Shown here one piece after another: positions 6,173 through 25,148 of a DNA stretch of 64,000 nt. Origin of the DNA: Longimicrobiales bacterium. GTDB lineage: Bacteria > Gemmatimonadota > Gemmatimonadetes > Longimicrobiales > Gaopeijiaceae. The DNA is taken from NCBI GenBank assembly GCA_958295645.1, contig OY282361.1, positions 2,260,501-2,324,500 on the forward strand. The letters are read 5' to 3'. Position numbers and translations under genes: made by a program. Within the stretch, counting starts at the first letter, position 1. Every line of letters starts with the position of its first letter. Below the pieces are notes generated by a model, which made no database searches, had not been told where the DNA came from, and was given only the letters and a program-made list of their open reading frames with translations.

Positions 6173-7381
6173 ATGCCCGACCCGATCCGCCAGCAGGACC
6201 CCACCGGCGCGCCCGACCCCACGCGACGCGACTTCCTCAAGACGGCGACAGTGGCCACGGGCGCCCTCTGGGCCGGCGCCGCCTGCACCGGCCAAGCCGA
6301 CGAGGAAACCGTCGAGCGCACCGCCGGTCCCCCGGAGCCCATGTCGATTCTCGTCCTCGGCGGAACCGGGTTCATCGGCCCGCACATGGTGGAGTACGCT
6401 GTGGCGCGCGGCCACGAAGTCACCCTCTTCAACCGCGGCCGCACCAACACGCACCTCTTCCCCGACCTGGAAAAGCTGGTCGGCGACCGCGACGGCGACC
6501 TGGCGGCGCTGGAGGGGCGCAGTTGGGACGCTGTGCTGGACAACTCCGGCTACGTGCCGCGCCACGTGCGCGACTCGGCCGAACTGCTGGCGGATTCGGG
6601 CCGCTACGTGTTCGTCTCGTCCATCTCCGCCTACAAGGATCTGGGCTCGTACGGCATTAGGGAGGACTACGAGGTCGGACGGCTCGACGATCCCACCGTG
6701 GAAGAGGTGAACGGCGTCACCTACGGACCGCTCAAGGCGCTCTGCGAGGAGGCTGTGCAGGACGTCTTCGGCAGGCGGGCCACGATCGTCCGGCCCGGAT
6801 ACATCGTCGGCCCCGGCGACGGCACGGACCGCTGGACCTACTGGCCCGTGCGCACGGCGGCGGGCGGCGAAATGGCCGTGCCGGGCACCCCGGTGGACCC
6901 CGTCCAGATCATCGACGCGCGCGATCTCGGCGGATGGATGGTGCGGATGGCCGAGCAGGGGACCGGCGGCGTGTTCAACGGCGTAGGGCCGGCCCTGGGC
7001 ATCAACATGCGGATGATGCTCGAAGCCTGCCGGGAGGTGACCGGCAGCGACGCCGACTTCGAGTGGATCGACGCCGACTTCGTGGAGGAGCACGGCGCCC
7101 GCTTCCCGATCTGGACGCAGCCGGAGGACGAGAGCTGGGGAGGAGCCCATCTCGTCGACAATTCGCGGGCGCTTGACGCGGGCTACACCAGCCGCCCCAT
7201 CGCCGACACGATCCGCGACACGCTGGAGTGGTGGAACGGCCTGCCCGCCGACGCCCGGCCCGACGGCATGAGAAACGGCTTCCGCAAAGCGCCGGAACTC
7301 GGAGGCGGCCCCGCGACCCTGGAAGCGATGCGCGAGGCGGAGAACCAGTTGCTGGAGGCGTGGGCGGCCAAGGGCTACTAG
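6173..7381 (+). CDS. Tat-exported NAD(P)-dependent epimerase/dehydratase lipoprotein
   Basis: This 402-residue protein is an extended short-chain dehydrogenase with a Tat signal (TRRDFLKTATVATGALWAG) ending in a lipobox-like GAAC, so it is probably a Tat-exported lipoprotein. The Rossmann motif is ILVLGGTGFIG near residue 60 and the catalytic Tyr-Lys pair is in TYGPLK. The C-terminal half resembles the isoflavone-reductase/epimerase group seen in other exported sugar-modifying enzymes. It diverges from the PhoX gene across about 180 bp that must hold both promoters. Its stop codon shares a CTAG palindrome with the stop of the convergent DUF499 gene. The substrate is unknown. Confidence 0.88.
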   Translation: MPDPIRQQDPTGAPDPTRRDFLKTATVATGALWAGAACTGQADEETVERTAGPPEPMSILVLGGTGFIGPHMVEYAVARGHEVTLFNRGRTNTHLFPDLEKLVGDRDGDLAALEGRSWDAVLDNSGYVPRHVRDSAELLADSGRYVFVSSISAYKDLGSYGIREDYEVGRLDDPTVEEVNGVTYGPLKALCEEAVQDVFGRRATIVRPGYIVGPGDGTDRWTYWPVRTAAGGEMAVPGTPVDPVQIIDARDLGGWMVRMAEQGTGGVFNGVGPALGINMRMMLEACREVTGSDADFEWIDADFVEEHGARFPIWTQPEDESWGGAHLVDNSRALDAGYTSRPIADTIRDTLEWWNGLPADARPDGMRNGFRKAPELGGGPATLEAMREAENQLLEAWAAKGY

Positions 7382-10300
7382 TCCACCTTAAGCCCTTTCG
7401 TCACCCGCTCCAGGGCTTGGTTCACCGCCGTTCTTTCGGCGGCGTCCAGTCCTCCCTCGGCTTTGACGCCGACCTGGAAGCGCAGCTGGGCGGTCGGAGC
7501 GGCCTCCAGCAGTTCGGGGATTCTCTCGCCCAGTTCCTGCACTTGCTCCGCGTCCAGAGTCACGACCATGAACTCGCGGCCCAGAGGCGGCTGGCGGGTG
7601 CCGTCGGGGGGGTCGTCGGGGCCGTCCGGACCGTCGCTAGAGTACTTCGGCAACGACGGGCGCTCCAGCAAGAGGGCTCCGGCTTGGGCCCAGGGACAGT
7701 CCTCCACCGAAACACTGTTCGGCAACAAGGAGAGCCAGCGGGAGTCCACCGACTCCTTGATGCCGCGGGCCATCAGCGGCCATGGGAGCGCGCGACCTCG
7801 CTTGACGCCCAAGGCCTGGGTGAGCTCGGCGCCGTTCGTCCTGCCGTCCGACCACGCGGAGGGCAGGTTCTCTTCGGTGAGATCCCCAGCCGCCACGGGC
7901 GTGGGGCGGGGCAGCAACTTGGCGCCCTCTCCAATCGCCCCGTGAGGAACGTCCTCAAGCCAAACGGAAGCCGGGCCGCTGATCAGCCAGACCGCTCCCT
8001 CCTTCACCGCCTCGCGCACAGCATCGTGCAACACCTGCTCGGAACACTTGGGGATGATCGCGCTTTCCGTGAGTTCGCCCACTAGGACGGGCACCTCGTA
8101 GCCGCCCGCGAAGTACTCGGCTAGGCGGGCAAGCGTGAGACAAGCGCCACCGGACTGATCCGCACCGTCGCCTGCGTCGCCTTCGGGCCACAGCTCGGGC
8201 AACGTCCCGGGCGCCAGCAGAGTCGGCAGCAGGTGGTCGAGCTCCGCGTTCTTCGGCAACGCGACCTGCAGTTGCGGGTCGGCGCTGGAGGCTTCCTCCA
8301 CGGACTCGCGCCACCACGTGCGACGGCTGCCGTCCGGGCGCTTCAGACAGGCGACGAACAAGCCGTCCTTGACGCCTTGAAATACCGTACCGAAGAGCAG
8401 TTGCGAGTTGAGCGCCTTGGGCAGGCGGGGACGGCGGGCGAAGGCGCTGGCCAAGTCCGCGACGAAGCGGGATTCCTCGTCCTCGCGCCACAAGTCGTAA
8501 GGACCGCCGGGCGCCAGGGCTTCGGCGTTGATGACAGTCTCTTGAATGCGCGACCGTTTGTCCTTCTTGATCTCGATGAAGAGAGACTTGTCCACGCTGG
8601 CCAACTTGAACGCGTGGACTTCGCCGTCCCGGCCGAAGGTCGTGACGATGCACCAGGCGGCTCGCAACGTCCCCGGAACGCGACGTCGCGCCTCCTCCAG
8701 CCGACGGCGGAGACGCAATTTCTGAGCCGCCTCCACTCCGTGTCCCGCCAACTGGACTTCGACTTCTTCCCAGCCCAGCAGCGCACGGATTTCCCCTCGC
8801 ACGGCCTTCAAGCCATCGCGAGAAGGCGCCGCCACGACCAGCGCGTTGCGGTGCACGCGGGGGCGGTCCTCGCCCTTGGTCGCCAGGAAGCTCGTCGCCA
8901 GCTTGCTCGGCTTTCCCGACTCGGAGGCGCCCGCGATGCCCAGAACCACGTAGCGGAACTTCAGGTCGTCGGCCACGTCCTGGGGCGACGCGGGCATCAT
9001 GTGCACTTGGACTCCGGCTGCCGAGGCGCCTTCGGTCAACGACTTCGTCTTGCGAGCCGCTGCCTCCAAGTAGTGATCGACCGCCTGCTCCGTGACGCGG
9101 TTTCTGCATGCGTCGTCGTGCATCTGGCGCAGGTTCGGGCGGTTGCCCAGCCGCCAGTCCTTGGGCAGGCCGGGGCCGCGCCGCTCGCCCGGGCCCGCAT
9201 CCTCGTCGTCCAGGAACCAGGAGACGTCGCGCCACCGCTCGAGCCCCTTGTCCACTTCGATCTTGTTGGGCGCACCAGCCCCGATCATCCGGCACAGAGG
9301 CTGCGTCTGAATCTTGCGGCCTACCGGCTGCGAGTGCAGAAACACCGCGACCACCGCCTGCTCGGCTTCGCGGCCGGGGGCCAGCGCCGGAAGCTCGTGC
9401 TGTATGTCGCGCGCCTTCTCAAGCTCCTTCGCGAGCAACGGCTTCCATTCCGTCTTCTTGCCGTCCACGGGCTCGGTCGTGGCTATACCCGCCAGCTCGC
9501 CGATGGCCTCGGACACGCCGGTGTCGCCGGGCGCGGTCAGCAACGCGGCGGGGCCGACCAAAGGACTGGTGTCCCACTTCTCGGCCTCGCGCAGCGCCGT
9601 CGCCAGCGTTCGCAGGATGCCCCTCGTGCGCTGAAATCCCTCCAGTTGCGTCCAACAGGTGTAGAAGACGTCCGTCAGCTTGGGGTGGAACGGGAAGTTG
9701 CGCAGGAAGTGTTCCTCGTCTTCGGGGCGGGAGCGGTCCGTGGTCGGCTGCACCTTGGCCAAGTTCCGCACTACGCCGATGACGTGAGATCGGTACGTCT
9801 CGGGCTCCCTGATGTCTTCGGCCTCGAAGAACCGGCGGCGCAGCACCTCGGCCACGTCCTTCTTCTGAACCGGCTCCACGCCCTCTTCCTTTTGGCGGCG
9901 CACGACGTCGAAGAGGGAGTGCATCAGCGCCTTTCCGGTCTCGTCGGCTTGCTTTCGCGGGTCGGTCGCCAGGAGCGACACCACCATGGCGGCCCGGTTC
10001 ACCTTGACCACGGCCTGGGTCAGGTGCTGGAAGAAGTCCACGATGCGGTCGCCCCAAACGGCGTCCTTGCCCGCCTTGCTGCGCGCGTACATGAGGACCT
10101 CGTCCACCAGGATCAGCGTGGACATCCCGCGCTCCTGCGGCTTGGCGAGAAGCTCCGCCAGAAGAGGCTCCGCAGGCGGCGTCTCGCGCTCCTGGGCCTG
10201 CCCGTCCGCGTGGATGGCGCGCAGTCCGTCGTCGCCGACGAGCTGGTAGGCCAGCACGCTCCACGGATGCAGCAGATCGCGGGTCTCGCCGGCTGGTCCA

Positions 10301-10746
10301 CGCACGCTCTTGATGCCCGTCTCCACGTCGATCTTGTCGAAGCAGAGCGTCGCTGGATAGGCCGCGGGCAGGTCGTAGCCCACATGCTCGCGGAACTCGC
10401 TGACGGCGGGCAACTCCGGCAACGCGGTGGGATCGCGGAACAAGTGGTAGAGCGTGATGAGCGTGTGCGTCTTGCCCCCGCCGTAGGTGAGCTCCAGCTG
10501 CCGCACGGCCTTGTCGCTCTGCCCCGCTAGGCGTCCCGCCACGTCGCGGACCAAGTCCCGCAGCGCGTGCGTCGCGTAGGTGAGGCCGAAGAAGCGCTCG
10601 GGGTTCTCGTAGACCGGGTGACTGCCCCGGCCCAGGGTCACTTCATGGAGGTCGGCGGCGAACTGGGCCAGCGAGAGTTCGCCGGTCCGAAGTTCTTCCT
10701 TCAGCCGGACGACTTCGTGCCATGGCTTGAGGCGGGGCTTCGTCAC
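7378..10746 (-). CDS. DUF499 P-loop ATPase of a helicase-methylase-ATPase (Hma-like) defence system
   Basis: This 1,122-residue protein is a DUF499 family ATPase, a family repeatedly found beside DUF1156 methyltransferases and SNF2 helicases in phage-defence loci. The nucleotide-binding loop is YGGGKTH at about residues 88-94 and the Walker B strand is LILVDE at 211-216. The N-terminus (WHEVV...GELSLAQFAADL) is the standard family opening. The start is GTG at 10746, chosen because it begins the conserved sequence and has AGGAG about 8 bp upstream. It is the last gene of the operon, 37 bp after the methyltransferase. Its C-terminal 400 residues are diverse, with no recognised domain. It probably powers DNA recognition or translocation by the complex, by inference. 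Confidence 0.9.
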   Translation of the reverse strand: MTKPRLKPWHEVVRLKEELRTGELSLAQFAADLHEVTLGRGSHPVYENPERFFGLTYATHALRDLVRDVAGRLAGQSDKAVRQLELTYGGGKTHTLITLYHLFRDPTALPELPAVSEFREHVGYDLPAAYPATLCFDKIDVETGIKSVRGPAGETRDLLHPWSVLAYQLVGDDGLRAIHADGQAQERETPPAEPLLAELLAKPQERGMSTLILVDEVLMYARSKAGKDAVWGDRIVDFFQHLTQAVVKVNRAAMVVSLLATDPRKQADETGKALMHSLFDVVRRQKEEGVEPVQKKDVAEVLRRRFFEAEDIREPETYRSHVIGVVRNLAKVQPTTDRSRPEDEEHFLRNFPFHPKLTDVFYTCWTQLEGFQRTRGILRTLATALREAEKWDTSPLVGPAALLTAPGDTGVSEAIGELAGIATTEPVDGKKTEWKPLLAKELEKARDIQHELPALAPGREAEQAVVAVFLHSQPVGRKIQTQPLCRMIGAGAPNKIEVDKGLERWRDVSWFLDDEDAGPGERRGPGLPKDWRLGNRPNLRQMHDDACRNRVTEQAVDHYLEAAARKTKSLTEGASAAGVQVHMMPASPQDVADDLKFRYVVLGIAGASESGKPSKLATSFLATKGEDRPRVHRNALVVAAPSRDGLKAVRGEIRALLGWEEVEVQLAGHGVEAAQKLRLRRRLEEARRRVPGTLRAAWCIVTTFGRDGEVHAFKLASVDKSLFIEIKKDKRSRIQETVINAEALAPGGPYDLWREDEESRFVADLASAFARRPRLPKALNSQLLFGTVFQGVKDGLFVACLKRPDGSRRTWWRESVEEASSADPQLQVALPKNAELDHLLPTLLAPGTLPELWPEGDAGDGADQSGGACLTLARLAEYFAGGYEVPVLVGELTESAIIPKCSEQVLHDAVREAVKEGAVWLISGPASVWLEDVPHGAIGEGAKLLPRPTPVAAGDLTEENLPSAWSDGRTNGAELTQALGVKRGRALPWPLMARGIKESVDSRWLSLLPNSVSVEDCPWAQAGALLLERPSLPKYSSDGPDGPDDPPDGTRQPPLGREFMVVTLDAEQVQELGERIPELLEAAPTAQLRFQVGVKAEGGLDAAERTAVNQALERVTKGLKVD

Positions 10747-10783
10747 GTTGCGGGTCTCCTGGAGGGGCGGTTCATCGGCGATT

Positions 10784-13700
10784 CTACCAGAGGGCGCCCT
10801 GCCGGGCAACGGGCTGCTCGCGGACGCTGCTGCGCGAGCGCGCATGGAGAACGTGGTTCTGAATCGATTCCAAGATGGCCCGCTCGCCCGACCCCTCCTT
10901 CGCCAACTCGATGACGGCCTGGACGATTCGGGCGAACAACTCGTGCCTCCACAGCCCCCGCCGGTCCAGGTACGCGTCCACCTTCGACCGCTCGCCGGTC
11001 TTCCACAGCTGCATGACCCTGTGCACGCAGTCGATGAGCGGCGGCATCCGCCCGTCGGCCCCGACTTCGCCGAAGTTCGGACGCTTGCGGCCGTGCCAAG
11101 GCTTGATGCGGACCGTGCCGCCGGTTGCAGGTGCCACGGCTTCGTCACCCTCGGTTTCCCCGGTGGCCCCGCGCCCTCCCTTCGCGAGCAAGTCCAGCCG
11201 TCCCGTGAGTGCCGAGTCCGGCACGTCGCACGACAGAGCGTACAGAATGCAGGCCCCCGCCGGAGCGGACTCCAATCCGAAGTCGTTGCGGTGAAGCAGA
11301 TAGTACGTCGTGGGATCGTCCAGTTCGTCGTCGGCTCCGCCCTCGCGCTTGAGCAACCGGTTGACGACGAAGCCCACAACCATGCGTCGCACGCGCCGCA
11401 AGAATTCGTCGCTGGTCAACCGTTCGCCGGGAACGTCCGCCTTCTTGACGACGGGATGCTCGCTGAAGGCTTCAAGAGCCGGCCCGGTCGCCGCCCAAAC
11501 GAAGTCCGGGCCGCGAATGCCCGCGTCCCAAAAGTCGCGGAGTCGCTGGGTGATGTTCTCTTCCATCTCGGAGAGCACTTTGTGGTCCCAGCCGGCTTTG
11601 GCTCGGGCGGGGCGCTTTCGGCAGACGATCCAGATGGAGGAAGACAATGCGGCGGAGGCCATTGAGCGCTGCCGGGTCTGCATCTCGGTCTGGATGGGCC
11701 ATGAAGCGGTGACCGCGAAGCCCGCGCGGATCAGGGCCGACACCAACGTCTCCCAAGCGTCGGGAGACTTGTTGGCGAAGACGAGGACTAGGCGGCCGTC
11801 TTCGTGAAGCGCTTCGTAGAAGCTCTTGAAGGCGCGAAACATGCCGTCCTCGTAGTTCTTCTTGGAGGCCGCGCGGTCGCCGCCGAAGCGGCTAGCGTCG
11901 TCGATCAGTTCGCCGTCGTTGGTCTCGGCGTCCCACTTCGGACCGAGCGGCTCCGAGAACACTTCGTCGATCTCCGGCGACAATCCGTGGAGGGCGCGCC
12001 GAAGCCAGACGTGAAAGAAGTCCATCAGGTCCGAATAGGGGATCGCGTCGTAGTAAGGGGGATCGGTGCAGATGACGTCGAAGTTGTTCGAGCCTTGATC
12101 CTCGATGGCGCTCCGGCGACGAACCGTGGGAGCAGGAGCGGCCGCGATGGCCGGTGCCGTCCGGTCCAAATAGCGAGCGACCCATTCCGCCATTGCGGCG
12201 AACCCGCCGGTTCGTTCGGAGAGCGGGTTGACTTCGCAGTAGTCCCAGACCATGGGGAGGGCGAAGCGGGCGAAGGTGCTACGCATCTTCTCGTACCCGA
12301 CGGTCCATGAGCAGATAGTGCTGCTGTAGTCCGTCAGCTTGCTCAGGATGCAAGCGAGGTAGGCAACGATGGCTTCCTGCCATTCCTCGGGGTAGTCGGC
12401 CAAGTCGTCGCGGCAGTTGCGGACTTCGCGGACGAAGGCCCCCAGGGTGAAGAGCTGGCGGCTGTCGAAGAGGCTGCGCCAAGTGGTAAATCCATAGCCG
12501 CCCACCGAGAACGCCCTAGCCGCTCCGGCACCAGCTTCCGGCGTCGGTTCGTTCGGCAGGCCAAACGGAATCTCATCCCATACGTCTCGGAGCATTTCGT
12601 CTTCGACGCGAGCGGCTTCGACTTCCTCGTCCGTTGGCCCGCGATACTCCTTCCCGCTTTGGCCATCCACGACGACCGCCGTCATGATGGCGCCGAGGCC
12701 GCCCATGCTCCCCTCGCGACGAACGTCCGCCATCGTCATGACGGCACCGCAACAAGGACAAGTCACCCCCGTCCTGCTCATCGTGCCTGCTCCAGCCCGC
12801 CGATCGTGCTCCCTTCGCTGTGCAGGGCCGCCCTCCCCCTTCGGCACATCGGTCTCCACACCAAAAGCAAGCCCCCCGGCGTCGCCCCGACTACCCTCCA
12901 ACACAAGCCGAACCCGCTTCCGTTCCTTCTTGCAAAGCCAGCGCGTCTTCAGCAACGGGACATCAGCCCGGCAGTCGCTACACCGCACGGTCCGCGCCCA
13001 CAAGTACGCGACCGTCGGCTTCACAACCCACCGCGGATTCGCTCCGTTCGCCAAATACGACCGCTCAAACTCTGCATTGAGCTCGTCCGCCGATACGCGA
13101 CCGTCGGCCCCCGCCCCAACGATCTGCCGAGCACGTGCCTCGTAAGCCTTCGCAGCCCCCGACACGCCCGCCCGAGCCTTCTTCGGCTCGAACTCCGCAT
13201 ACGTCGGATACCGCCCCTCCACGGCCCGTCGAACCCGCTTCTGCACCCGCATCGCCCACGCCCGCAAGTGCCATCCAAAACCAGCACCATCCTCCAACGC
13301 TCCCCCCCTCAAGAACCCCGACTCCACCGATCCGCCGCCGTTCTCCCCCCTCCCCAGCCTCTTCACCTCTGCTTCCAGCCGCCCGCCCTTCAATCCCTTC
13401 GCCTTCAAGAAAGCCCGCACGAACACCTCGTCGGCAAGCGCAAACTCCGGCAACCGCCGCTTCCCATCAGCCACCAGCCTCGGATACCAAAGCGCGCACC
13501 GCAACAAGAAACACGCCACCGGACTCAAGTCCGACGCCACCACCTCGCAACCCAGCCGCATCCCCTCCAGCGGAATCGCCCCACCCCCCGCAAACGGATC
13601 GAGCACTCGCGGCGCCCGTCCGCCAAACGCCTCCCGCACTTCCTCCCGAAACCGTCGCACGCCCGCATCATCCTCCCGCCCCCACCGAAAAACCCCTCCA

Positions 13701-13987
13701 ACCGTCGTTTCCCTCCCCTCCCCAGGCTCTTTCACAACCGTCCCACCCATCCTCCCAATCACCGCCTCGCGCCCTCCCCGCGTACCCGGATCCGGCAACA
13801 GCGTCCCCAACACCGCCGCCCTGCTCGCCGCCAACGGCCGCCTAGCCGGCCAAATGTGGAGCGTCGACAAGTGCCCATGCCGAACCGCCTTCTCGTGCAC
13901 CGAATCCAACGAGACCTGGCGAAGCGGAAAGGCTACCTCGCCAATGCGGCGTTGCTCCACAATGCCATTTTCGCCGCTACTGGTCAT
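10784..13987 (-). CDS. DUF1156 DNA methyltransferase of the Hma-like defence system
   Basis: This 1,067-residue protein is a large DNA methyltransferase of the DUF1156 family, likely an adenine or N4-cytosine enzyme. The N-terminal DUF1156 block contains the conserved HIWPARRPLAASRA. The SAM-binding motif I is VLDPFAGGGAIPLEG at about residues 128-142 and the catalytic motif is TDPPYYDAIPYSDL near residue 640. The start at 13987 overlaps the KAP stop as ATGA; an upstream ATG at 14044 would overlap KAP coding by 61 bp and is less likely. In such systems the methyltransferase marks self DNA, so that the helicase and ATPase act on unmodified DNA; this role is inferred from the family and context. 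Confidence 0.92.
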   Translation of the reverse strand: MTSSGENGIVEQRRIGEVAFPLRQVSLDSVHEKAVRHGHLSTLHIWPARRPLAASRAAVLGTLLPDPGTRGGREAVIGRMGGTVVKEPGEGRETTVGGVFRWGREDDAGVRRFREEVREAFGGRAPRVLDPFAGGGAIPLEGMRLGCEVVASDLSPVACFLLRCALWYPRLVADGKRRLPEFALADEVFVRAFLKAKGLKGGRLEAEVKRLGRGENGGGSVESGFLRGGALEDGAGFGWHLRAWAMRVQKRVRRAVEGRYPTYAEFEPKKARAGVSGAAKAYEARARQIVGAGADGRVSADELNAEFERSYLANGANPRWVVKPTVAYLWARTVRCSDCRADVPLLKTRWLCKKERKRVRLVLEGSRGDAGGLAFGVETDVPKGEGGPAQRREHDRRAGAGTMSRTGVTCPCCGAVMTMADVRREGSMGGLGAIMTAVVVDGQSGKEYRGPTDEEVEAARVEDEMLRDVWDEIPFGLPNEPTPEAGAGAARAFSVGGYGFTTWRSLFDSRQLFTLGAFVREVRNCRDDLADYPEEWQEAIVAYLACILSKLTDYSSTICSWTVGYEKMRSTFARFALPMVWDYCEVNPLSERTGGFAAMAEWVARYLDRTAPAIAAAPAPTVRRRSAIEDQGSNNFDVICTDPPYYDAIPYSDLMDFFHVWLRRALHGLSPEIDEVFSEPLGPKWDAETNDGELIDDASRFGGDRAASKKNYEDGMFRAFKSFYEALHEDGRLVLVFANKSPDAWETLVSALIRAGFAVTASWPIQTEMQTRQRSMASAALSSSIWIVCRKRPARAKAGWDHKVLSEMEENITQRLRDFWDAGIRGPDFVWAATGPALEAFSEHPVVKKADVPGERLTSDEFLRRVRRMVVGFVVNRLLKREGGADDELDDPTTYYLLHRNDFGLESAPAGACILYALSCDVPDSALTGRLDLLAKGGRGATGETEGDEAVAPATGGTVRIKPWHGRKRPNFGEVGADGRMPPLIDCVHRVMQLWKTGERSKVDAYLDRRGLWRHELFARIVQAVIELAKEGSGERAILESIQNHVLHARSRSSVREQPVARQGALW

Positions 13988-15408
13988 GGGCCGCTGGAAA
14001 GTTCGATCAGGCTCACCAAGTGGCGTTTCCATCTGTCGATCCATCGGTGGCCCCTTCTGTCTTCCCAGGGCTTCGAGTTACTGGCAGTTCTGATCATATC
14101 TTCAAGTTCTTCCACGTCCGCGCGTTTTGTCGATTCAGCCAGTAAGGTCGTTGATGGGAGCTCTTCACCGCTATCATTCAAACGGTGTTGTCTCAGATGC
14201 CGCATTTGGCTAAGTGCAGTGGCATCATGTGGCATTTCTTCATCGCATACGGCATATAGAAATGCTGGTATGAGATTTATCCACGAATGATCGCCCGAAG
14301 GATAAGCAGTCTTGTCTATTCGTTTCTCTAATAATGTCAGCATTTCTCCCGCAACATGATCACCGTTCACGAAGCGTTGATACAAGTCAGGAGCAATTAG
14401 ACGAATAACGATAACAGCTACAATCACATGTGGTTGATAGCCAATTCTGTTTTGCGCCATATTGCCCGCGGCAAACGTTGCCATACGAATGCATTGTTCT
14501 ATGTCACGGAGCGACAAGTCTTCTATTGTGCTTGGAATGCGTGTTATCGCGTCATCGAAGCCTTCGGCATAGTCGGATCCCACGGATTCATCTATAATCA
14601 TCTTTGTGCGATATCGTTCTGCTACATGTGCACAATAACTACGCCGACTGACAGTTGGCAACGTGAATTCCATGTCGAAGATTCTTCTCAGGTAAATGTC
14701 TGCGTCGATATTGCCATAAAGCGATTTAATCGATTCGCATAACTCGCTTCGATTGATGCCGTAAACAAACATCAAACCGGGAATATTAAGAACGTGTTTG
14801 GTTCTTTCTAGCGTTGCAATGGCAAAGTCTGGACGGCATCGGTCAAGTTCATCGACGATACACACTAGCGGTCGATCCTCTTCCAGAAACTTGGCCATCG
14901 CCTCGCGTAGTCGACTCACGCTCGCTACTTGGTCTTCATATTTTGCTAGGATTTTGTCGCCAATTCTTGGTATCTGCAAGCCCAAGAAGCGCTTTACGAC
15001 ACTTTCAAGATTGTTGTAGGCAATCTCCTTTGCATTATCCGATAACGATTTCTTGATCTTGATGTCCTTACACTGCTTTACAATCTGCGCATTTACAATC
15101 TGCGCAAGCATTGCAACAAGAGGATCGCTACAAAAATCATCTTTCCATGCGTTAAAATATATTACTCTAAACTCGTTCTCCAATTGGTTCTTCCATCGTG
15201 TCAGGAAGAAGGTTTTGCCTGTGCCCCACTTTCCGTCCAGCGAAACGACGAATGGTCCTCGCTGGCTCTTGATCAGATTCGTTAGGGCATTTGCTGCCTG
15301 GCCACGATTAAGGGCATCATCCTTCCATGGATTCGTCTTGTCGATTTCGGGTTCAGGAAAAACGAGCTGAGGCTGAGGCATGGCCGTATTCTCGGGAGCA
15401 GTTGTCAT
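13984..15408 (-). CDS. KAP family P-loop NTPase inserted in the defence operon
   Basis: This 474-residue protein is a KAP-type P-loop NTPase. Walker A is GKWGTGKT at residues 59-66 and Walker B is LVCIVDELDRC at 181-191, both textbook for the family. The family is widespread in phage defence and signalling loci and often carries membrane helices inserted between the Walker motifs; none is evident here, so this one looks soluble. The gene is clearly AT-richer than its neighbours, as is the 3' part of the gene before it, which suggests the two arrived together. A GAGG ribosome site precedes the ATG. The stop overlaps the methyltransferase start (ATGA). KAP is not part of the minimal Hma set as I know it. 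Confidence 0.9.
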   Translation of the reverse strand: MTTAPENTAMPQPQLVFPEPEIDKTNPWKDDALNRGQAANALTNLIKSQRGPFVVSLDGKWGTGKTFFLTRWKNQLENEFRVIYFNAWKDDFCSDPLVAMLAQIVNAQIVKQCKDIKIKKSLSDNAKEIAYNNLESVVKRFLGLQIPRIGDKILAKYEDQVASVSRLREAMAKFLEEDRPLVCIVDELDRCRPDFAIATLERTKHVLNIPGLMFVYGINRSELCESIKSLYGNIDADIYLRRIFDMEFTLPTVSRRSYCAHVAERYRTKMIIDESVGSDYAEGFDDAITRIPSTIEDLSLRDIEQCIRMATFAAGNMAQNRIGYQPHVIVAVIVIRLIAPDLYQRFVNGDHVAGEMLTLLEKRIDKTAYPSGDHSWINLIPAFLYAVCDEEMPHDATALSQMRHLRQHRLNDSGEELPSTTLLAESTKRADVEELEDMIRTASNSKPWEDRRGHRWIDRWKRHLVSLIELSSGP

Positions 15409-15452
15409 GGTTTACCTCATCATAGATTGTAGTACGACATTAATGCATTGAC

Positions 15453-16196
15453 CTAAGTCAGTGTTCTCACCAGCGACAAGAAATCCTTAGCGAGTGGTAA
15501 GATGTTCTGCAGTTGCTTCTTGGTTCGTCGCCAACGATCATCGCTTATCTCGGCTACATCGTATCCAATCGATGTGACATGCAATATGTCGATCCTAGGA
15601 AACGACTCGCCTACGTAGTGCGCCATCGTGCGAATTTCCACGTATCCCTTTTCGGCTAAGTGTTGGCAATAAAGCGAAATATAATCTTCTTCGAGATTCG
15701 CGATCTCATCATTCTCGCATTCCCTCGCCAAAGATCTGATTTCCGTGCTAGGCAAAGGAAAGTCATTTGGTTCCCTGCTGGCCAGCAGGCTCAAAATGTT
15801 TCGGTATGCATCAAGGCGATCTGCTGTAGCCATCCCCTTCAACCTCACCGCGCGCAACTTCGTCAGCCGCTGGTTCCGAGGATCCACCTCCACACCCGCG
15901 GATTCCAGTGCGGTTACGCCCAGCAATGGCTCCGAGTTCGGGGCTCCGAAGACGACCAGCCCAGCGGTGAACTCGCCCATGAATTCGATCCGCGCCCCTG
16001 CGACGTCCATCGTCGCTTCGTGTCCGTCCGCCAGTTCGTAGACGCGTTGCCTCTCTGGCGTTATCCCGATGGCGTCCAGCTGGTTCCGGGGGATGACCGT
16101 GTCTGTCGCGCCGGTGTCCACCAAGAAGCGGCCCGTCCAGGTCCGGGATCGGTCGGCGAAGTTGCTGATCGTGACATCCACATGGATGGCTCCCAT
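15453..16196 (-). CDS. Retropepsin-like aspartic protease fused to a winged-helix (DUF2513-like) domain
   Basis: This 247-residue protein has two parts. Residues 1-120 are a clan AA retropepsin-like domain with the catalytic triplet in FLVDTGAT (D27-T-G-A30), the hydrophobic flap region and a conserved LLGVTALESAGVEVDP block near 91-106. Residues 125-247 look like a winged helix of the DUF2513 kind (EDYISLYCQHLAEKGYVEI, then HVTSIGYDVAEISDDRWRR). GC content drops at the junction, around 15830. The start at 16196 overlaps the preceding stop (TAATG) and matches the start of the degraded copy at 17903. Retropepsin-like single-domain proteases work as homodimers, so dimerisation is expected. Its target is unknown. 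Confidence 0.85.
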   Translation of the reverse strand: MGAIHVDVTISNFADRSRTWTGRFLVDTGATDTVIPRNQLDAIGITPERQRVYELADGHEATMDVAGARIEFMGEFTAGLVVFGAPNSEPLLGVTALESAGVEVDPRNQRLTKLRAVRLKGMATADRLDAYRNILSLLASREPNDFPLPSTEIRSLARECENDEIANLEEDYISLYCQHLAEKGYVEIRTMAHYVGESFPRIDILHVTSIGYDVAEISDDRWRRTKKQLQNILPLAKDFLSLVRTLT

Positions 16197-16351
16197 TACT
16201 CGCTGCCTTTCTGTTGAGGTTGAGGATCGTGGACGCGGAAGAGCCGGGGTTCCGGCGTCGGGTCGTCCAGGACCACGTAGAGCCAATACTCGTCGCCGAG
16301 ATTGTTGGCCTGCTTCCATTCGTTGGCCTCCCGCTGCACGCCGCCCTGGCC
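16012..16351 (-). repeat. Copy B of a duplicated helicase-end/protease-start segment
   Basis: This stretch repeats 17720-18145 in the same orientation, at roughly 95 percent identity outside gaps by eye. It holds the last helicase codons and the first 60 protease codons. Compared with copy A it has an in-frame deletion of 87 bp in the helicase tail. Boundaries are approximate. The 1.3-kb GHKL gene lies between the copies. Confidence 0.85.
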
Positions 16352-16366
16352 CATCGCCAGCTTCAT
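16196..16366 (-). CDS. Orphan fragment of the helicase DUF3883 domain (56 aa)
   Basis: This short frame begins with an ATG overlapping the stop of the GHKL gene (ATGA) and ends in a TAA overlapping the protease start. Its 56 residues repeat the extreme C-terminus of the helicase at 17900-18145: EANEWKQANNLGDEYWLYVV, then TPEPRLFRV and QKGSE. A block of exactly 29 residues found in the helicase tail is missing here. It therefore comes from the tandem duplication described in the repeat entries. Both overlaps would let it be translated, but whether the short product is stable or merely bridges translation between its neighbours is unknown. Confidence 0.7.
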   Translation of the reverse strand: MKLAMGQGGVQREANEWKQANNLGDEYWLYVVLDDPTPEPRLFRVHDPQPQQKGSE

Positions 16367-17652
16367 TGTCTATACTCCACGAGTGCTGACTTGCCCACTA
16401 CGGCCGCTACCCGAATCGTCATGTTGGCACTGGCTGAATCGGTAAGCAGCAGGTCTTGGCCCAACAAGAAAGCGGCCGGTTGCTCGATCCCTTGGTCGAT
16501 GGTCGCGCCGGAAACGTGGAGACTGGTCCTGTCGTGCACGTCCCGCACAGGATTGAGCGTAGCCAACAGGCCGGGAACTTCGCCGACCCCGTCCGCCAGA
16601 ATGACCGACCCGCCTTCAGCAAGTCGCTGGAGATCGATGTCCAAGCGCCGGTCGTCCGTTGCCGGAACCCACTTCTGCCTCACATAGGCCTCGAAGCCCG
16701 TAGCAGCTACGAACAACGTCATCGGCAGATGCGTCGAGTGCAGGTTCATGGTCGCGGCACCTTCAATGTTGCTCGATGCTTGTTCGTAGGCACCGTCGGG
16801 GAAGTGCAGGAGGATGGCGGCCTCGGCGATCGGCCTGCCAGCGGATTGCACGCAGAACGCGACACGGCCGGGAGTCCACGCCAGCGGGGCCGCTGGAATC
16901 GTGAGCCGCAAGTCGGTTTCGCCGATCAACTCGTAGAACGGGGGTTCGGCACCGAGCGCCTCGGTCTGGTGACGAATGATGCCCACGCCGTCGCCTCTCC
17001 TCTCCATGAAGAACTGGCTGTCGCCGGAGCCGCGAACCTTCTGCGAACTCATGCGGCCCAGCGTGGACGCCAGCACCTCGTTGCGGGTCGCTTGTTGAGC
17101 GTCCATGAAGGCGACCCGCAGGCCGTTGGCCAATGGGCCGGGCGACTGAATCTCCAGCCGGTCCTCGAACAGGGATAGGCGGATGCGACGTCCGCGAATC
17201 GAGTAGTCGCGGTGCGCGACAGCGTTCACGACGGCTTCGAAGACGGCCCTGTCGCTGAACTGCGGGAGGTCCACGCGGCCGGGTTCCTTTCGGGCGGCGA
17301 CGCGCATGTTGCAGAGCACGAAGGCCACCGCGGCGGCAATCTGCTTGTCCAGCGGGCCGCAGATCGTCTTCGCGTCGATCTGCATGGAGGCTCGGTCGGC
17401 GCCTCTGTAGCACGTCGCCGTGATGCAGGCGTTGTCGAGCCACTCTTCAGGCGCTCGGGCGCACAGGAGCAGACCCGCCACCGACGCCCTCGGCGTTCCT
17501 CGCTCGTCTCTCGTCAGCAATCCCATCTTCTCCAGGGCCACCTCGGGAGCGGCAGCCCCGTGAATGCTGACCAGGCTCTTCCACAAGGCTTCGTCCAGGC
17601 TCTGCAGCCCCGTGTCTGGAACGGCGGACTTGTCGAATCCCGCGAACTTCAT
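16363..17652 (-). CDS. GHKL-type ATPase (RecG-like/COG2865 C-terminal module) inserted in the defence operon
   Basis: This 429-residue protein matches the ATP-binding part of the COG2865 family (often annotated as RecG-like helicase or AlbA_2 domain transcriptional regulator). The conserved Asn box is EAVVNAVAHRDYS at residues 139-151 and the following RIRLSLFEDRLEIQSPGPL is the usual G1 region. The N-terminal AlbA_2 domain of about 130 residues normally found in the family is absent; the protein begins close to the inter-domain linker. About 180 C-terminal residues have no recognised fold. Start and stop each overlap the neighbouring frame by ATGA. It sits between the two copies of the duplicated helicase/protease junction. 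Its role is unknown; nucleotide sensing is plausible. Confidence 0.8.
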   Translation of the reverse strand: MKFAGFDKSAVPDTGLQSLDEALWKSLVSIHGAAAPEVALEKMGLLTRDERGTPRASVAGLLLCARAPEEWLDNACITATCYRGADRASMQIDAKTICGPLDKQIAAAVAFVLCNMRVAARKEPGRVDLPQFSDRAVFEAVVNAVAHRDYSIRGRRIRLSLFEDRLEIQSPGPLANGLRVAFMDAQQATRNEVLASTLGRMSSQKVRGSGDSQFFMERRGDGVGIIRHQTEALGAEPPFYELIGETDLRLTIPAAPLAWTPGRVAFCVQSAGRPIAEAAILLHFPDGAYEQASSNIEGAATMNLHSTHLPMTLFVAATGFEAYVRQKWVPATDDRRLDIDLQRLAEGGSVILADGVGEVPGLLATLNPVRDVHDRTSLHVSGATIDQGIEQPAAFLLGQDLLLTDSASANMTIRVAAVVGKSALVEYRQ

Positions 17653-17903
17653 GCGGGCAACGCTCGGCTGACCCTGGGCCAGGAATGCGGCCCATCCATC
17701 CCTTCAACCTCACCGAAGGCTTCGCGTCCGTCCGCCAGTTCGTAGAGGCGCTGCCTCTCCGGCGTTATCCCGATGGCGTCCAGCTGGTTCCGGGGGATGA
17801 CCGTGTCCGTCGCGCCGGTGTCCACCAAGAAGCGGCCCGTCCAGCTCCGGGACCGGTCGGCGAAGTTGCTGATCGTGACATCCACATGGATGGCTCCCAT
17901 CAT
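17649..17903 (-). pseudogene. Truncated retropepsin-like protease remnant
   Basis: The first 60 residues are almost the same as the intact protease at 15453-16196, including the catalytic LVDTGATDTVIP, and the DNA is about 96 percent identical by eye over the shared part. After ELADGREA about 175 bp are deleted and the frame rejoins a copy of the sequence encoding the end of the protease domain, shifted out of its original frame, so the product is only 84 residues. It lacks the flap and the C-terminal half of the fold. The start overlaps the helicase stop and its stop overlaps the GHKL start, so it may still serve translational coupling. Confidence 0.82.
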
Positions 17904-18145
17904 TCGCCACCTTTCTGTCGAGGCTGTTGGTGCCCGCGGCCCGCCGCCAGAATGTCCTTCGCCGAAATAGTGTACCGCACGCTCGTTGTCCGGCCAGCGA
18001 CGAAAGTGTCGAAGGGATCGCGGACGCGGAAGAGCCGGGGCTCCGGCGTCGCGCAGTCCAGGACAACGTAGAGCCAGTATTCGTCGCCGAGATTGTTGGC
18101 CTGCTTCCATTCGTTGGCCTCCATCAGCACGCCGCCCTGGCCGGC
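17720..18145 (-). repeat. Copy A of a duplicated helicase-end/protease-start segment
   Basis: This copy carries the intact helicase 3' end and the first 60 codons of a protease gene, then breaks. A further short match beyond the break, near 17695-17712, corresponds to sequence near 15831-15848, showing that the protease copy here was once longer and lost an internal piece. It is directly repeated at 16012-16351. Boundaries are approximate. Confidence 0.85.
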
Positions 18146-21100
18146 CCGGCCCTTGACCTCGATGTGCCGGCGTTCCCGGCCCGGGCGGTCGGACACCAGG
18201 TCGAAGCCGGGCCAGTCGGAGAAGCCCGCGACCCGGGCCAGCGCGGGCTTGGACACGTCGCGGACGGAGCCGCCGTGCTCGCGCTCCCACGCGGCGGCGA
18301 CGCCTACGGCAACCTCCTCGACTCTGGCGTCGTAGCGGTCCACGTCGCCGGTGCCGTGGATGCCTGCGGGCACCACTAGGGCGTGGGCGAGGAAGCGGAC
18401 GCCGCCGGGCACGATGCGCTCTGGTGCGGCGCTCAGCTGGTCCAGCGCGAGTCGGCGTTGTCCGGACACGACCTGCTGGCCGCGCTTGGCCTTCTCCAGG
18501 GCATCGGCGTCGTCCGGCGAGTCGGCGCCGGAGCCCGCGACTCGCTTGGCCAGCTCCTTGCGGCGGCGGGCGGCCTGGGCGGCCAGCAGACCGAATCCGA
18601 CCTCCACCTGCCGACGCCGTTCGGGGAGTTCCGCCCGCCTTGTCTCGCGCTGGCTCTCGACGAGTTCGGCGAGAATGCGGGACTCGGCGTGGGCGGCCGA
18701 CTCGGCACGCATCGACAGGCCTCGGCTCGCGAGCGGGACGGCGCCGGGAGGGAAGCCGGGCGCGCCCCTCAGGAGAAGGAAGTGCTCGACGGCGCATTCC
18801 GCCGGACCCGCGTCGCCGTCGTGACGCAACGCCAGCAGGCGACGGTCGAGGATTCGCCGGCCGACTCGGTCGGTCTCGATGCGGCCACCGTCGCCACGCT
18901 GGGGGCCAGCCTCGGTTCGCAGGCCGGCGATGGCCGTGGGGTCGGGTTGCTCTTCCACCGTGACCGTGGCCAAGTGGAAGGTGTAGGGGGCGTCGGCGCG
19001 GGGGTCCACGAAGACGGCGCCTCTGAGCGCGTCTCTGCCGAACGCCTCCTGGACCGCTCCGGCCAGGGAGTCGAAGACGGGTTCGCCGGGGCGGAGCCAG
19101 ACGGACGGGGCATCGCTCGCGGTCTCGGGCCGCCGGACGCACAAACGGGCTCGTGCTTCTTCGGGGTAGCCGTCCAAGGCGGGAAGGAGGGCGTCCAGAG
19201 CCCCGGCGCGGGCGGGCGAGAGGTCGAAGAAGCCGTCCAAGTCGCCGCGTATCTCCAAGCTCAGCAGGTCGGCGGCCCGTTCGACGAAGCGGCGCACGTA
19301 GCCGGGCAGGAGTTGCAGGTAGCGTTCGCGCTCCACGTCGCCTCGGAGTCCGGCCAGGCGGCCCGCCAAGTCGTCGTCGGCGCCGTAGAGTTCGCGTTCT
19401 TCGCCGTCGACGGCCCGCACGCGGTCGCTCGTCAGGACGCTCTCGATCTGTTGCGCGACATGCACCGGTCGCTGGCGTCCGCCATCCGCACGGCCGTCGC
19501 CTCCGGCCTCCAACGACTCCAGCATGTAGCGGCGCAGCGAGGCGTTCTCGAAGAGCCGCCCGATCACGTCGAACACCTTGTCCGAGTTCAGCTCGCGGCG
19601 GATCGCGTCCAGCTTGTCCAGCAGCACCTGGAGCACGCGGCCCTCGTGGGTCCGGCCGGCGACCAAGTTCACGATCTGCACATTGCGCTTTTGGCCGTAT
19701 CTGTGAACGCGGCCCATGCGTTGTTCCAGTCTGGCCGGGTTCCATGGAATGTCGTAGTTGGCCATCAGGCGGCAGAACTGGAGATTGATGCCCTCGCCAG
19801 CGGCGTCCGTGGCCACCAAGTAGCGGGCTCCCGAGGGGTCCCGGAAGCGCTCGACCTGCTCCTCGCGCTCCGGCCACGCCATTCCCCCATGGATGTGGGC
19901 AACCCTGCCGGCGTATCCCAGGCCCTCCAGTCGGCGGACCAAGTAGTCGACCGTGTCGCGGTGCTCGCTGAAGAGGAGCCACTTCTCGTCGGCGTGGCGG
20001 ACGTCTTCCAGCACCTCGCGCAGCTTCTCGAACTTGGACTCGCGACCCGTCTCCAGCAGTCTGCGCGCCCGGTCTCGAAGCCCGGCCACCGTGCGAACCT
20101 CCTGTTCGAGCTCCTCGATCGTGACGGCGATCACCGCGCCCAGGACGGCCTCCTCGTAGTCCTCGTTGCGTTCCTGGACGCCGGCGCGGCTTGCATCGGC
20201 CTCCTCCCAGCCGCCGTCTTGCCCGCGGCCGTCCTCGTCGGCGGTGCTGGAGTCGAAGAAGTCTTCGGAGTGCGCCCTGCCGATGTCGAGTTGGCGGCGT
20301 TCCAGCTCGTCCGTGGTGATGCGGCCTGCGGCGAGATCGGCGGCCGTCCGCTCCAGCTTGTCGATGCGGCGCTCGAACGACCGGAGCAGGGCATACGTCG
20401 AGCTGGCCAGCCTGCGCTGGAAGACGCTCATGGCCAAGCTGACCGCGGGGCGGTTCCGAAGGGCGCGGCCGTAGGTCTGGCGCAGGTAGGCCGTGGTCTC
20501 GTCGTAGAGGGCCTGTTCGCCGTCGGGGCCGGGCGTCAGGTCGTAGGAGAAGGTGTCGCAGGCCCGGTGCGGGTAGATGGGGCGGCCCTGCAGGTCGACC
20601 ATCTGCTCTTTGGTGCGGCGGACGAAGTGGCGGCTGCGCCCAGCGGACGGGAAGCGCCGAAGGGCCGCCTCGGTGGTGAAGACTTGGTCGTTCAGAAGGC
20701 GCCAAAGATGATGGTAGGGCGAGGACTTGCCCATGTGGGGCGTCGCGGTCAGGAGAAGCAGGTGCCGGGCGGACCACCTCATCCCTGCGAAGGGCGCCGC
20801 GGCGGCGCTGCAACCCGCCAGGGCCTCGGCCAGCTTGTAGCGGCGCGTCTTGCGGACGCGATGTTCGTCCGCCGTGGCGTGCAGCTTGTGGGCCTCGTCG
20901 AACACGACCAGGTCGTAGGCGGCCGCCGCGCCGGCGTCGCGGAGGGCGGAGAAGACCCGGTCGCCCGCCAGCGTGTCCAGCGAGACGATGGCCAAGTCGG
21001 CCCACGGTCCGATGAACTGGCCGGCGTCGGCCTGGCCCGCGGCCTCTCGTCCCCCGGCCGCGGCGCCGCGGCGCACGTCGGCTCCCGACACGATGCGGAA

Positions 21101-21769
21101 GTCGAGCCGGAACAGCGTGCGAAGCTCGCGCCGCCAGTTGCCGACGAGCCCTGCAGGCGGCACCACCAGAACGCGCCGGAGCCGGCCCCGCGACAGCATC
21201 TCGCGCACGTACAGGCCTGTCATGATCGTCTTGCCCGCGCCCGCGTCGTCCGCCAGCAGGAAGCGGAGGGGGTCCTGGCCCAGCATCCGTTCGTACACGG
21301 CAATGCGCTGGTGCGGCAACGGGTCGATGCGCGAGGTCTCGCTCGCGAAGGTCGGATTGAACTGATGCCCGTGGGCGAGCCGCCACGCCTCCGCCACGAC
21401 CGACACGGCTTCAGCATTGCCCGCGAAGTCGAGCGATGGGACGGACGCCGCCGCGAGCGCCTCCCAATGCCCGCCGTCCGCTCCGCCGACCAGAGTTGCC
21501 CGGCCCAGGCGTCGCGGCCGGCTCGCCAAGCTGACCCCGGCGGGCGTTGCGAGCTCGGCCGTCGCCGCGGCGGCCTCGGCAAGCTCGTCCAGTCGTTGCC
21601 GCGCCATCGGGTGAGGCCGCGACTTGCCCGCCTCCCACCGGTGCACCGTGACGGCGCTGACCCGCAAACGCTCCGCCAACTGGCCCTGCGTGAGGCCCAG
21701 ACTCTTGCGAAGCGCACGCAGCTGCGTCCCGTCGGCGCCGGTCTCGAGATTGGTCGCTGGAGTGCTCAT
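17900..21769 (-). CDS. HTH-SNF2 helicase with DUF3883 domain, first gene of the defence operon
   Basis: This 1,289-residue protein has three recognisable parts. Residues 15-60 are a Cro/CI-type helix-turn-helix (LGLTQGQLAERLRVSAVTVH). A SNF2-like superfamily 2 helicase follows, with motif I in ADDAGAGKT near residue 176, DEAH near 290, the TATPHMGK motif III, and the second RecA domain with GEGINLQF near 660 and QRMGRVHRYGQ near 690. The last 130 residues are a DUF3883-type, nuclease-like domain (IEVKGRAGQGG, then NEWKQANNLGDEYWLYVV). This order is typical of SNF2 helicases of DISARM and Hma loci. The HTH could let the protein regulate its own operon. The start is the only good one before the HTH. 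Confidence 0.92.
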   Translation of the reverse strand: MSTPATNLETGADGTQLRALRKSLGLTQGQLAERLRVSAVTVHRWEAGKSRPHPMARQRLDELAEAAAATAELATPAGVSLASRPRRLGRATLVGGADGGHWEALAAASVPSLDFAGNAEAVSVVAEAWRLAHGHQFNPTFASETSRIDPLPHQRIAVYERMLGQDPLRFLLADDAGAGKTIMTGLYVREMLSRGRLRRVLVVPPAGLVGNWRRELRTLFRLDFRIVSGADVRRGAAAGGREAAGQADAGQFIGPWADLAIVSLDTLAGDRVFSALRDAGAAAAYDLVVFDEAHKLHATADEHRVRKTRRYKLAEALAGCSAAAAPFAGMRWSARHLLLLTATPHMGKSSPYHHLWRLLNDQVFTTEAALRRFPSAGRSRHFVRRTKEQMVDLQGRPIYPHRACDTFSYDLTPGPDGEQALYDETTAYLRQTYGRALRNRPAVSLAMSVFQRRLASSTYALLRSFERRIDKLERTAADLAAGRITTDELERRQLDIGRAHSEDFFDSSTADEDGRGQDGGWEEADASRAGVQERNEDYEEAVLGAVIAVTIEELEQEVRTVAGLRDRARRLLETGRESKFEKLREVLEDVRHADEKWLLFSEHRDTVDYLVRRLEGLGYAGRVAHIHGGMAWPEREEQVERFRDPSGARYLVATDAAGEGINLQFCRLMANYDIPWNPARLEQRMGRVHRYGQKRNVQIVNLVAGRTHEGRVLQVLLDKLDAIRRELNSDKVFDVIGRLFENASLRRYMLESLEAGGDGRADGGRQRPVHVAQQIESVLTSDRVRAVDGEERELYGADDDLAGRLAGLRGDVERERYLQLLPGYVRRFVERAADLLSLEIRGDLDGFFDLSPARAGALDALLPALDGYPEEARARLCVRRPETASDAPSVWLRPGEPVFDSLAGAVQEAFGRDALRGAVFVDPRADAPYTFHLATVTVEEQPDPTAIAGLRTEAGPQRGDGGRIETDRVGRRILDRRLLALRHDGDAGPAECAVEHFLLLRGAPGFPPGAVPLASRGLSMRAESAAHAESRILAELVESQRETRRAELPERRRQVEVGFGLLAAQAARRRKELAKRVAGSGADSPDDADALEKAKRGQQVVSGQRRLALDQLSAAPERIVPGGVRFLAHALVVPAGIHGTGDVDRYDARVEEVAVGVAAAWEREHGGSVRDVSKPALARVAGFSDWPGFDLVSDRPGRERRHIEVKGRAGQGGVLMEANEWKQANNLGDEYWLYVVLDCATPEPRLFRVRDPFDTFVAGRTTSVRYTISAKDILAAGRGHQQPRQKGGE

Positions 21770-24512: not shown

Positions 24513-25148
24513 TCAGTTGGTACCGAGTTCGCGGAGCCTAGCAACCAGCTTCCCGACATCCGTGGACGAATGGCCTTGCGACACGCCTGGCCGTTTGCCG
24601 CGATTCATCGCCACGCACAACTTGTCGCGACAATCGTCATAAATAGCACGACTGTTCTTCTTGTAGTCTGGCAGATGGCTCTTGAGAGCTTCAATGACCT
24701 TGCTACATGCCGAGCGGCCCGAGAGTCCAAGAAATGGCCTTGTCGTATCTTCAAAGTGAATCAGTAGCCAGTACTCGAAGCAAGGAATCGATACGACTTC
24801 ATGGATCGCAAGTTTCTTTCTTCGGCTTTCTCTTGCAGTCTCCTTGACTTCCCGCGCAAGTCTCTCGATTTCGGCGTCCCTCTCGTCGTGATCCACGACA
24901 CACCATATTTCGTCGCCCGGCTCATGGCCTTTGATTTCCTGTCGAATCTTTTCAATCATCCTACCAATAGTCCTCAGGCCGACGACCTTGACGCTGGTCA
25001 AGCCAAATTCTTGTTTCAAGGCGCTGAAGTAATTGACCTCCGTTTCCTTGCCTTCGCACAAGACCAGAATCTTCGGTTGGCGTGCTTTCGCCCCATGGCG
25101 CCTTCTCGGCGTGCGGCTTCGCCTCCCCTTGCCGCGTTTCCGATTCAA
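24513..25148 (-). CDS. RloB family protein (AbiLii-like)
   Basis: This 211-residue protein matches RloB, the partner of an ATPase in restriction-linked and abortive-infection loci. The signature ILVLCEGKETEVNYFSALK is at residues 27-45, after a strongly basic N-terminal 25 residues. Acidic residues in WCVVDHDERDAE and the conserved SIPCFEYWLLIHFED block point to a TOPRIM-like metal-binding nuclease fold. The start is a TTG at 25148 that overlaps the RloA stop, the only arrangement that keeps the conserved part and couples translation. In lactococcal AbiL the equivalent pair stops phage growth. The gene is less GC-rich than its neighbours. Confidence 0.85.
   Translation of the reverse strand: MNRKRGKGRRSRTPRRRHGAKARQPKILVLCEGKETEVNYFSALKQEFGLTSVKVVGLRTIGRMIEKIRQEIKGHEPGDEIWCVVDHDERDAEIERLAREVKETARESRRKKLAIHEVVSIPCFEYWLLIHFEDTTRPFLGLSGRSACSKVIEALKSHLPDYKKNSRAIYDDCRDKLCVAMNRGKRPGVSQGHSSTDVGKLVARLRELGTN

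Follow-up and report, generated by a model that had tools for sequence, protein, structure and literature searches.

The Hma system was reportedly described by Payne in 2021. Its core corresponds to the DUF499-centred BREX-related (BR) systems, and Schlafen-kinase genes have been reported near BREX/BR loci (PMC12839542). In addition, Hma-embedded candidates (HEC) and candidates found by embedding (PDC) are cited in a second source (PMC12988326). The window analysed here, namely the whole stretch of 64,000 nucleotides (bases 2260501-2324500 of its genome), contains an operon in which the SNF2 helicase HmaA, the DUF1156 methyltransferase HmaB and the DUF499-type AAA+ ATPase HmaC are each recognised by PADLOC; it is a genuine Hma system whose A-B interval holds additional genes (Table 1).

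In the direction of transcription, on the minus strand, the operon comprises hmaA, a retropepsin remnant, an HATPase gene, a scar, an intact retropepsin-winged-helix gene, a KAP gene, hmaB and hmaC. The sequence-only reading had placed an HTH-SNF2-DUF3883 helicase, a DUF1156 methyltransferase and a DUF499-type ATPase at the operon ends, and Pfam and PADLOC agree with it, HmaC being identified by PADLOC. The C-terminal NOV_C domain of HmaA (1.6e-13) carries a PD-(D/E)XK-like motif, GFDL..IEVKGR, recognised by direct reading of the sequence. HmaC also matches the PADLOC DUF499 model (4.9e-17); the Pfam DUF499 model (PF04465) gives no match to the window protein, and its identification rests on PADLOC. 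Pfam likewise recovers the retropepsin with a C-terminal extension and the KAP NTPase that had been proposed between A and B, while the count of four extra genes given there holds only if the inactive remnant (17903-17649) is included. The genes had also been described as mostly joined by 4-bp overlaps; ATGA overlaps are found at three of the six junctions (hmaA/remnant, remnant/HATPase gene and KAP/hmaB, the last with the likely hmaB start at 13987), whereas the other three are gaps of 166, 44 and 37 nt.

Table 1. Features of the Hma operon and of its rearranged segment, in window coordinates.
Feature	Coordinates	Strand	Evidence or remark
hmaA: xre HTH (residues 14-70), SNF2 helicase, C-terminal NOV_C/DUF3883	17900..21769	-	Pfam; PADLOC HmaA 1.3e-155
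Retropepsin remnant	17649..17903	-	About 61 first residues kept, including DTGA; remaining protease deleted
HATPase_c_4 gene, C-terminal Schlafen-HATPase part without AlbA_2	16363..17652	-	Pfam; G037 homologue
Scar, decayed duplicate of hmaA 3' end	16197..16351	-	Repeat; alignment
Intact retropepsin-winged-helix gene, 247 aa	15453..16196	-	Pfam gag-asp_proteas 8e-8; AlphaFold/Foldseek; G037 homologue
KAP P-loop NTPase	13984..15408	-	Pfam KAP 1.8e-33; PADLOC PDC-S20 2.2e-90
hmaB, DUF1156 adenine methyltransferase, DPPY motif	10784..13987	-	Pfam DUF1156 6.5e-18; PADLOC HmaB 1.3e-107
hmaC, AAA+ ATPase of DUF499/HmaC type, GTG start	7378..10746	-	PADLOC HmaC 5.4e-74
Direct repeat copy 1, retropepsin 5' end	17719..17926		94% to 16015-16222
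Direct repeat copy 2, retropepsin 5' end	16015..16222		94% to 17719-17926
Low-GC block, winged-helix half of protease gene plus KAP	13984..15833		46-47% GC

A near relative of the window genome (G000), the Longimicrobiales MAG G037, has the order hmaA, retropepsin-winged helix, Schlafen-HATPase, a type IIG-like enzyme, a 219-aa protein, a DUF2806 protein, hmaB and hmaC, with no KAP gene within its Hma operon and with a retropepsin 57% identical to the window copy. Its Schlafen-HATPase (L044:10720-12576) carries SLFN_AlbA_2 (5e-14) followed by HATPase_c_4 (1.6e-17), and the window protein, 70% identical over the shared part, starts exactly where the AlbA_2 domain of this homologue ends; no AlbA_2 domain was found by Pfam in the window gene. 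The GHKL ATPase of the sequence-only reading is therefore present as an HATPase_c_4 protein, but as the C-terminal part of a Schlafen-HATPase and not as a whole gene. Lacking the RNase-like AlbA_2 half, the Schlafen-HATPase of the window is probably defunct, although the truncated gene could have a new role, since its reading frame is uninterrupted over 429 aa and is connected to the preceding gene through an ATGA overlap.

By using a repeat search, a second direct repeat was found (16224-16351 / 18015-18142, 91% identical) next to the one listed in Table 1, and alignment of the scar to hmaA 18015-18142 gave 91% identity with an internal deletion. Both repeats jointly duplicate the hmaA 3' end and the retropepsin 5' end on either side of the HATPase gene: in copy 1 the hmaA end is intact and only about 61 protease residues are left, and in copy 2 the protease is whole and the hmaA end decayed. 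The start at 16319 listed for the intact retropepsin reflects an extension of its reading frame into the scar. The winged-helix half of the protease gene and KAP have 46-47% GC, compared with 64-71% in the remaining operon genes and 67% in the surrounding region. Neither the repeat (16015-16351 / 17719-18142) nor the low-GC block had been seen in the sequence-only reading. An assembly artefact was rejected as the source of the duplication, because a divergence of 6-9% separates the copies and the assembly consists of one contig (2.9 Mb). Two retropepsin copies, a repeat flanking the Schlafen remnant and a low-GC block mark the locus, as far as its sequence can tell, as a recombination mosaic and not a designed six-gene machine. 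In the simplest account, a G037-like hmaA-retropepsin-Schlafen arrangement would have been joined to a second segment, hmaA 3' end, retropepsin-winged helix and KAP, from a related operon; such recombination would leave the direct repeat, the hmaA scar and the truncated first protease, the succession of steps being deduced from a single genome and a single relative. In G037, another retropepsin (L052) is likewise preceded by an hmaA-like 3' remnant.

Related loci show how variable the interval between hmaA and hmaB is. The A-B distance ranges from 67 bp (G010), 171 bp (G023) and 184 bp (G012), genomes with a bare A-B-C core and a nearly empty gap, up to 8.9 kb; more than 700 bp separate the two genes in 34 of 37 such loci, and the B-C gap is that wide in 11 of 26. 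Among 72 cargo proteins of Hma junctions, Pfam identified AAA_21/AAA_15 in nine, AbiJ_NTD4 in six, SLFN_AlbA_2 in four, and KAP, UvrD, TIR, SIR2, OLD-TOPRIM and zeta in two each; PADLOC matches include GajA, AriA, AbiL, HEC-01 and PDC families. The hmaA-hmaB gap is thus, by its predicted gene content, a cargo site that is filled by Gabija-, OLD-, AbiJ-, SIR2-, Schlafen-, KAP- or zeta-type genes. One junction (L061:8792-13650) holds a Tle1-like phospholipase, a retropepsin and an argonaute-associated SIR2 protein (Aga_SIR2). Between the two options left by the sequence-only reading, a composite system or a nested, hitchhiking module, the nested one is right, because cargo families vary among loci and the core exists bare. 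The same reading could name no known system of this composition, which is correct for the exact list only, since Hma-embedded genes have already been described as HEC/PDC.

The window KAP matches PDC-S20 over its full length (residues 18-412). KAP genes occur at two other Hma junctions (G336 and G442), both without a retropepsin, and in forms remote from the window protein (phmmer 2e-28 and 4e-26); plasmid searches likewise gave only distant homologues, below 35% among the matches listed. It had been proposed that a functional combination would be unlikely if no other genome had the protease/KAP pair near these genes. The pair was found at no other Hma locus, and at Hma junctions the retropepsin has many other partners; a specific protease-KAP combination is for this reason unlikely, and the idea of a fixed pair, which was found nowhere else, was rejected.

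The intact protease has Pfam aspartyl-protease matches and shows both the DTG(A) motif and the fold of clan AA retropepsins. DTGA is invariant in the 32 relatives chosen for alignment. The AlphaFold model has a pLDDT of 83, above 90 in the protease part, and Foldseek aligned it with HIV protease at TMt 0.63-0.77; the C-terminal part is modelled, at lower confidence, as helices plus a wing of two strands. With a single DTG in each chain, the protease would act as a homodimer. A full match to the small PDC-M08B protein was sought and rejected: the match is weak and confined to the active-site motif, at 3e-4 for the window protein and 0.001 for that of L061, and five other retropepsins tested gave none.

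Through a genome-wide scan based on the protease, a retropepsin was found 3' of hmaA at eight loci in seven groups (Longimicrobiales, Pseudomonadales, Latescibacterota, Spirochaetia, Binatia, Vicinamibacterales and Dehalococcoidia). Sampling through hmaA instead gave a full-length copy in four of 25 loci (G037, G464, G668 and G669) and a fragment in G489. The gene is also found between HTH-HsdM and HsdS of type I systems in Latescibacterota, Gemmatimonadota, Acidobacteria, Nitrospirota and Dehalococcoidia, with HsdR downstream in L069. In L073:8133-16556 and L088:8139-14661, HTH-HsdM, retropepsin and HsdS are followed by Piwi (pAgo) and SIR2 genes 3' of HsdS. At one Hma junction (L230:9779-10285) the active site has been lost (FLVNTFATDS). 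The window genome carries a retropepsin pseudogene (G000:C1:28791-29192; L051:9807-10190) that contains an in-frame TGA and that a deletion has apparently linked to a fragment of a Schlafen-HATPase, and elsewhere a retropepsin overlaps an HATPase_c_3 gene (L052:7626-10299 / L066), where an SduA_C (Shedu) match is weak and below the Pfam cut-off. As for mobile elements, there was no match among plasmids and no confirmed relative in viral contigs.

The account that we consider likely is that of a three-gene, restriction-like Hma system whose A-B junction serves as a cargo site, whose present order was produced by recombination, and which has the retropepsin as an optional companion. Judging from the respective families, HmaB would mark self DNA by adenine methylation, HmaC would act as an AAA+ scaffold or sensor, and HmaA would translocate on unmodified DNA and cut it via its C-terminal PD-(D/E)XK-like domain, while the intact KAP protein is probably a separate back-up effector of the abortive type. 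The retropepsin would have been acquired repeatedly by such operons, and the core complex or a phage inhibitor would be its most plausible candidate substrates.

It is possible, though we hold it only tentatively, that the retropepsin is a dispersed passenger for which Hma and type I loci are just two landing places, without a function there. About 60 of its best 79 relatives lie outside recognised Hma or type I loci, the scanned ones mostly beside metabolic genes (glutamate synthase, CoA transferase, Ldh, monooxygenase), and each genome has one to five close copies. On the retropepsin tree the Hma-linked copies are scattered (11 changes for 13 rows, with shuffles as low in 71 of 500), which suggests several independent recruitments, and decayed copies are known from the window remnant, G489, L230 and the G000:C1:28791 pseudogene. 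Against this, the four of 25 Hma loci compare with 0.011-0.042 expected (p about 5e-10 to 1e-7), under a uniform scatter model that ignores the hotspot nature of the site and counts the G464 copy without DTG; DTG is retained in 12 of 13 Hma-linked copies; and among close HsdM relatives, sampled through HsdM, seven of eight keep the retropepsin before HsdS (G328 does not), these type I-linked copies being clustered on the tree.

A further proposal gives the retropepsin a working accessory role in DNA-modification immunity: after several recruitments beside hmaA and fixation in one type I lineage, it would cut a core subunit, as restriction control, or a phage anti-restriction protein; we judge this rather unlikely. 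The cutting of HsdR by ClpXP in restriction alleviation provides an analogy for the control of restriction by a protease.

An improbable alternative is a two-gene module of retropepsin and Schlafen-HATPase, broken in the window, in which the protease would control an RNase-like effector. The two are adjacent in G037 (L044), L062, L080, L092, the window and the G000:C1:28791 pseudogene, yet most retropepsins, including most Hma ones, have no Schlafen gene nearby, and the Hma junction of L235 has a Schlafen gene without a retropepsin. That all genes form one composite defence machine, as their single direction and the ATGA overlaps at three junctions might suggest, is very improbable: the bare core exists, the cargo differs nearly everywhere, protease and KAP meet at no second locus, half of one cargo gene has been lost, and of the two protease copies one is inactive. 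Hardly credible at all is a tie of the retropepsin to the N-terminal HTH of hmaA or HsdM, by which it would clear an HTH-bearing autorepressor in analogy to ImmA/ImmR, for although an xre HTH is present on all complete HsdM upstream of a retropepsin and on most retropepsin-bearing hmaA, many HTH-bearing hmaA and the HTH-HsdM of G328 lack the protease, G037 and L130 have it without the HTH, and the strict link, strong at first, was mostly refuted on a wider sample of hmaA and HsdM.

With the restriction-like core and its optional companion as the preferred account, the locus represents a familiar type of system carrying familiar types of cargo; its rearrangement is unusually easy to read, and it has one recurrent, so far unexplained companion gene. 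It makes visible how the Hma cargo gap is rebuilt, recombination at a shared gene giving half-deleted effectors that resemble new genes, and it calls for care when a new system is declared on the basis of one locus. If the retropepsin works, regulated proteolysis would be tied to Hma as well as to type I restriction, and if the functional-accessory proposal were true, bacterial defence against phages would gain its first retropepsin with such a role; no such role was found in the literature searched, and the survey of DUF499-centred BR systems does not mention a retropepsin (PMC12839542). The same genome has a second SNF2/DUF1156/DUF499 locus (G000:C1:2118000-2138000; L050), 26-31% identical to that of the window, and just upstream of the Hma operon lies an RloAB/AbiL-like module, a pair of RloB (1.1e-29) and AAA_21 (1.2e-32) genes (24513-26428, minus strand).

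Compared with the DUF499-centred BR systems, the operon shares the SNF2 helicase-nuclease, the DUF1156 N6-MTase and the AAA+ ATPase, their order and their phyla-wide spread, but it carries cargo between A and B, and its HmaA begins with a predicted xre HTH where Type-1/3 BR helicases have TUDOR (PMC12839542). The AlbA_2 and HATPase_c_4 gene at the G037 Hma junction resembles the Schlafen-HATPase-wHTH of BREX/BR loci, of which the window keeps the HATPase part alone (PMC12839542). With the HEC/PDC families of "guilt by embedding" (cited in PMC12988326), the operon has in common defence genes nested in Hma, the window KAP being PDC-S20 and GajA, HEC-01 and PDC families occupying the same junction in relatives, while the retropepsin differs in its weak resemblance to PDC-M08B at the active-site motif. 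This protease is like HIV protease in fold and in its DTGA motif, and a profile match links it to the rickettsial ApRick (0.0026); unlike both, it is a small bacterial operon protein fused to a winged helix.
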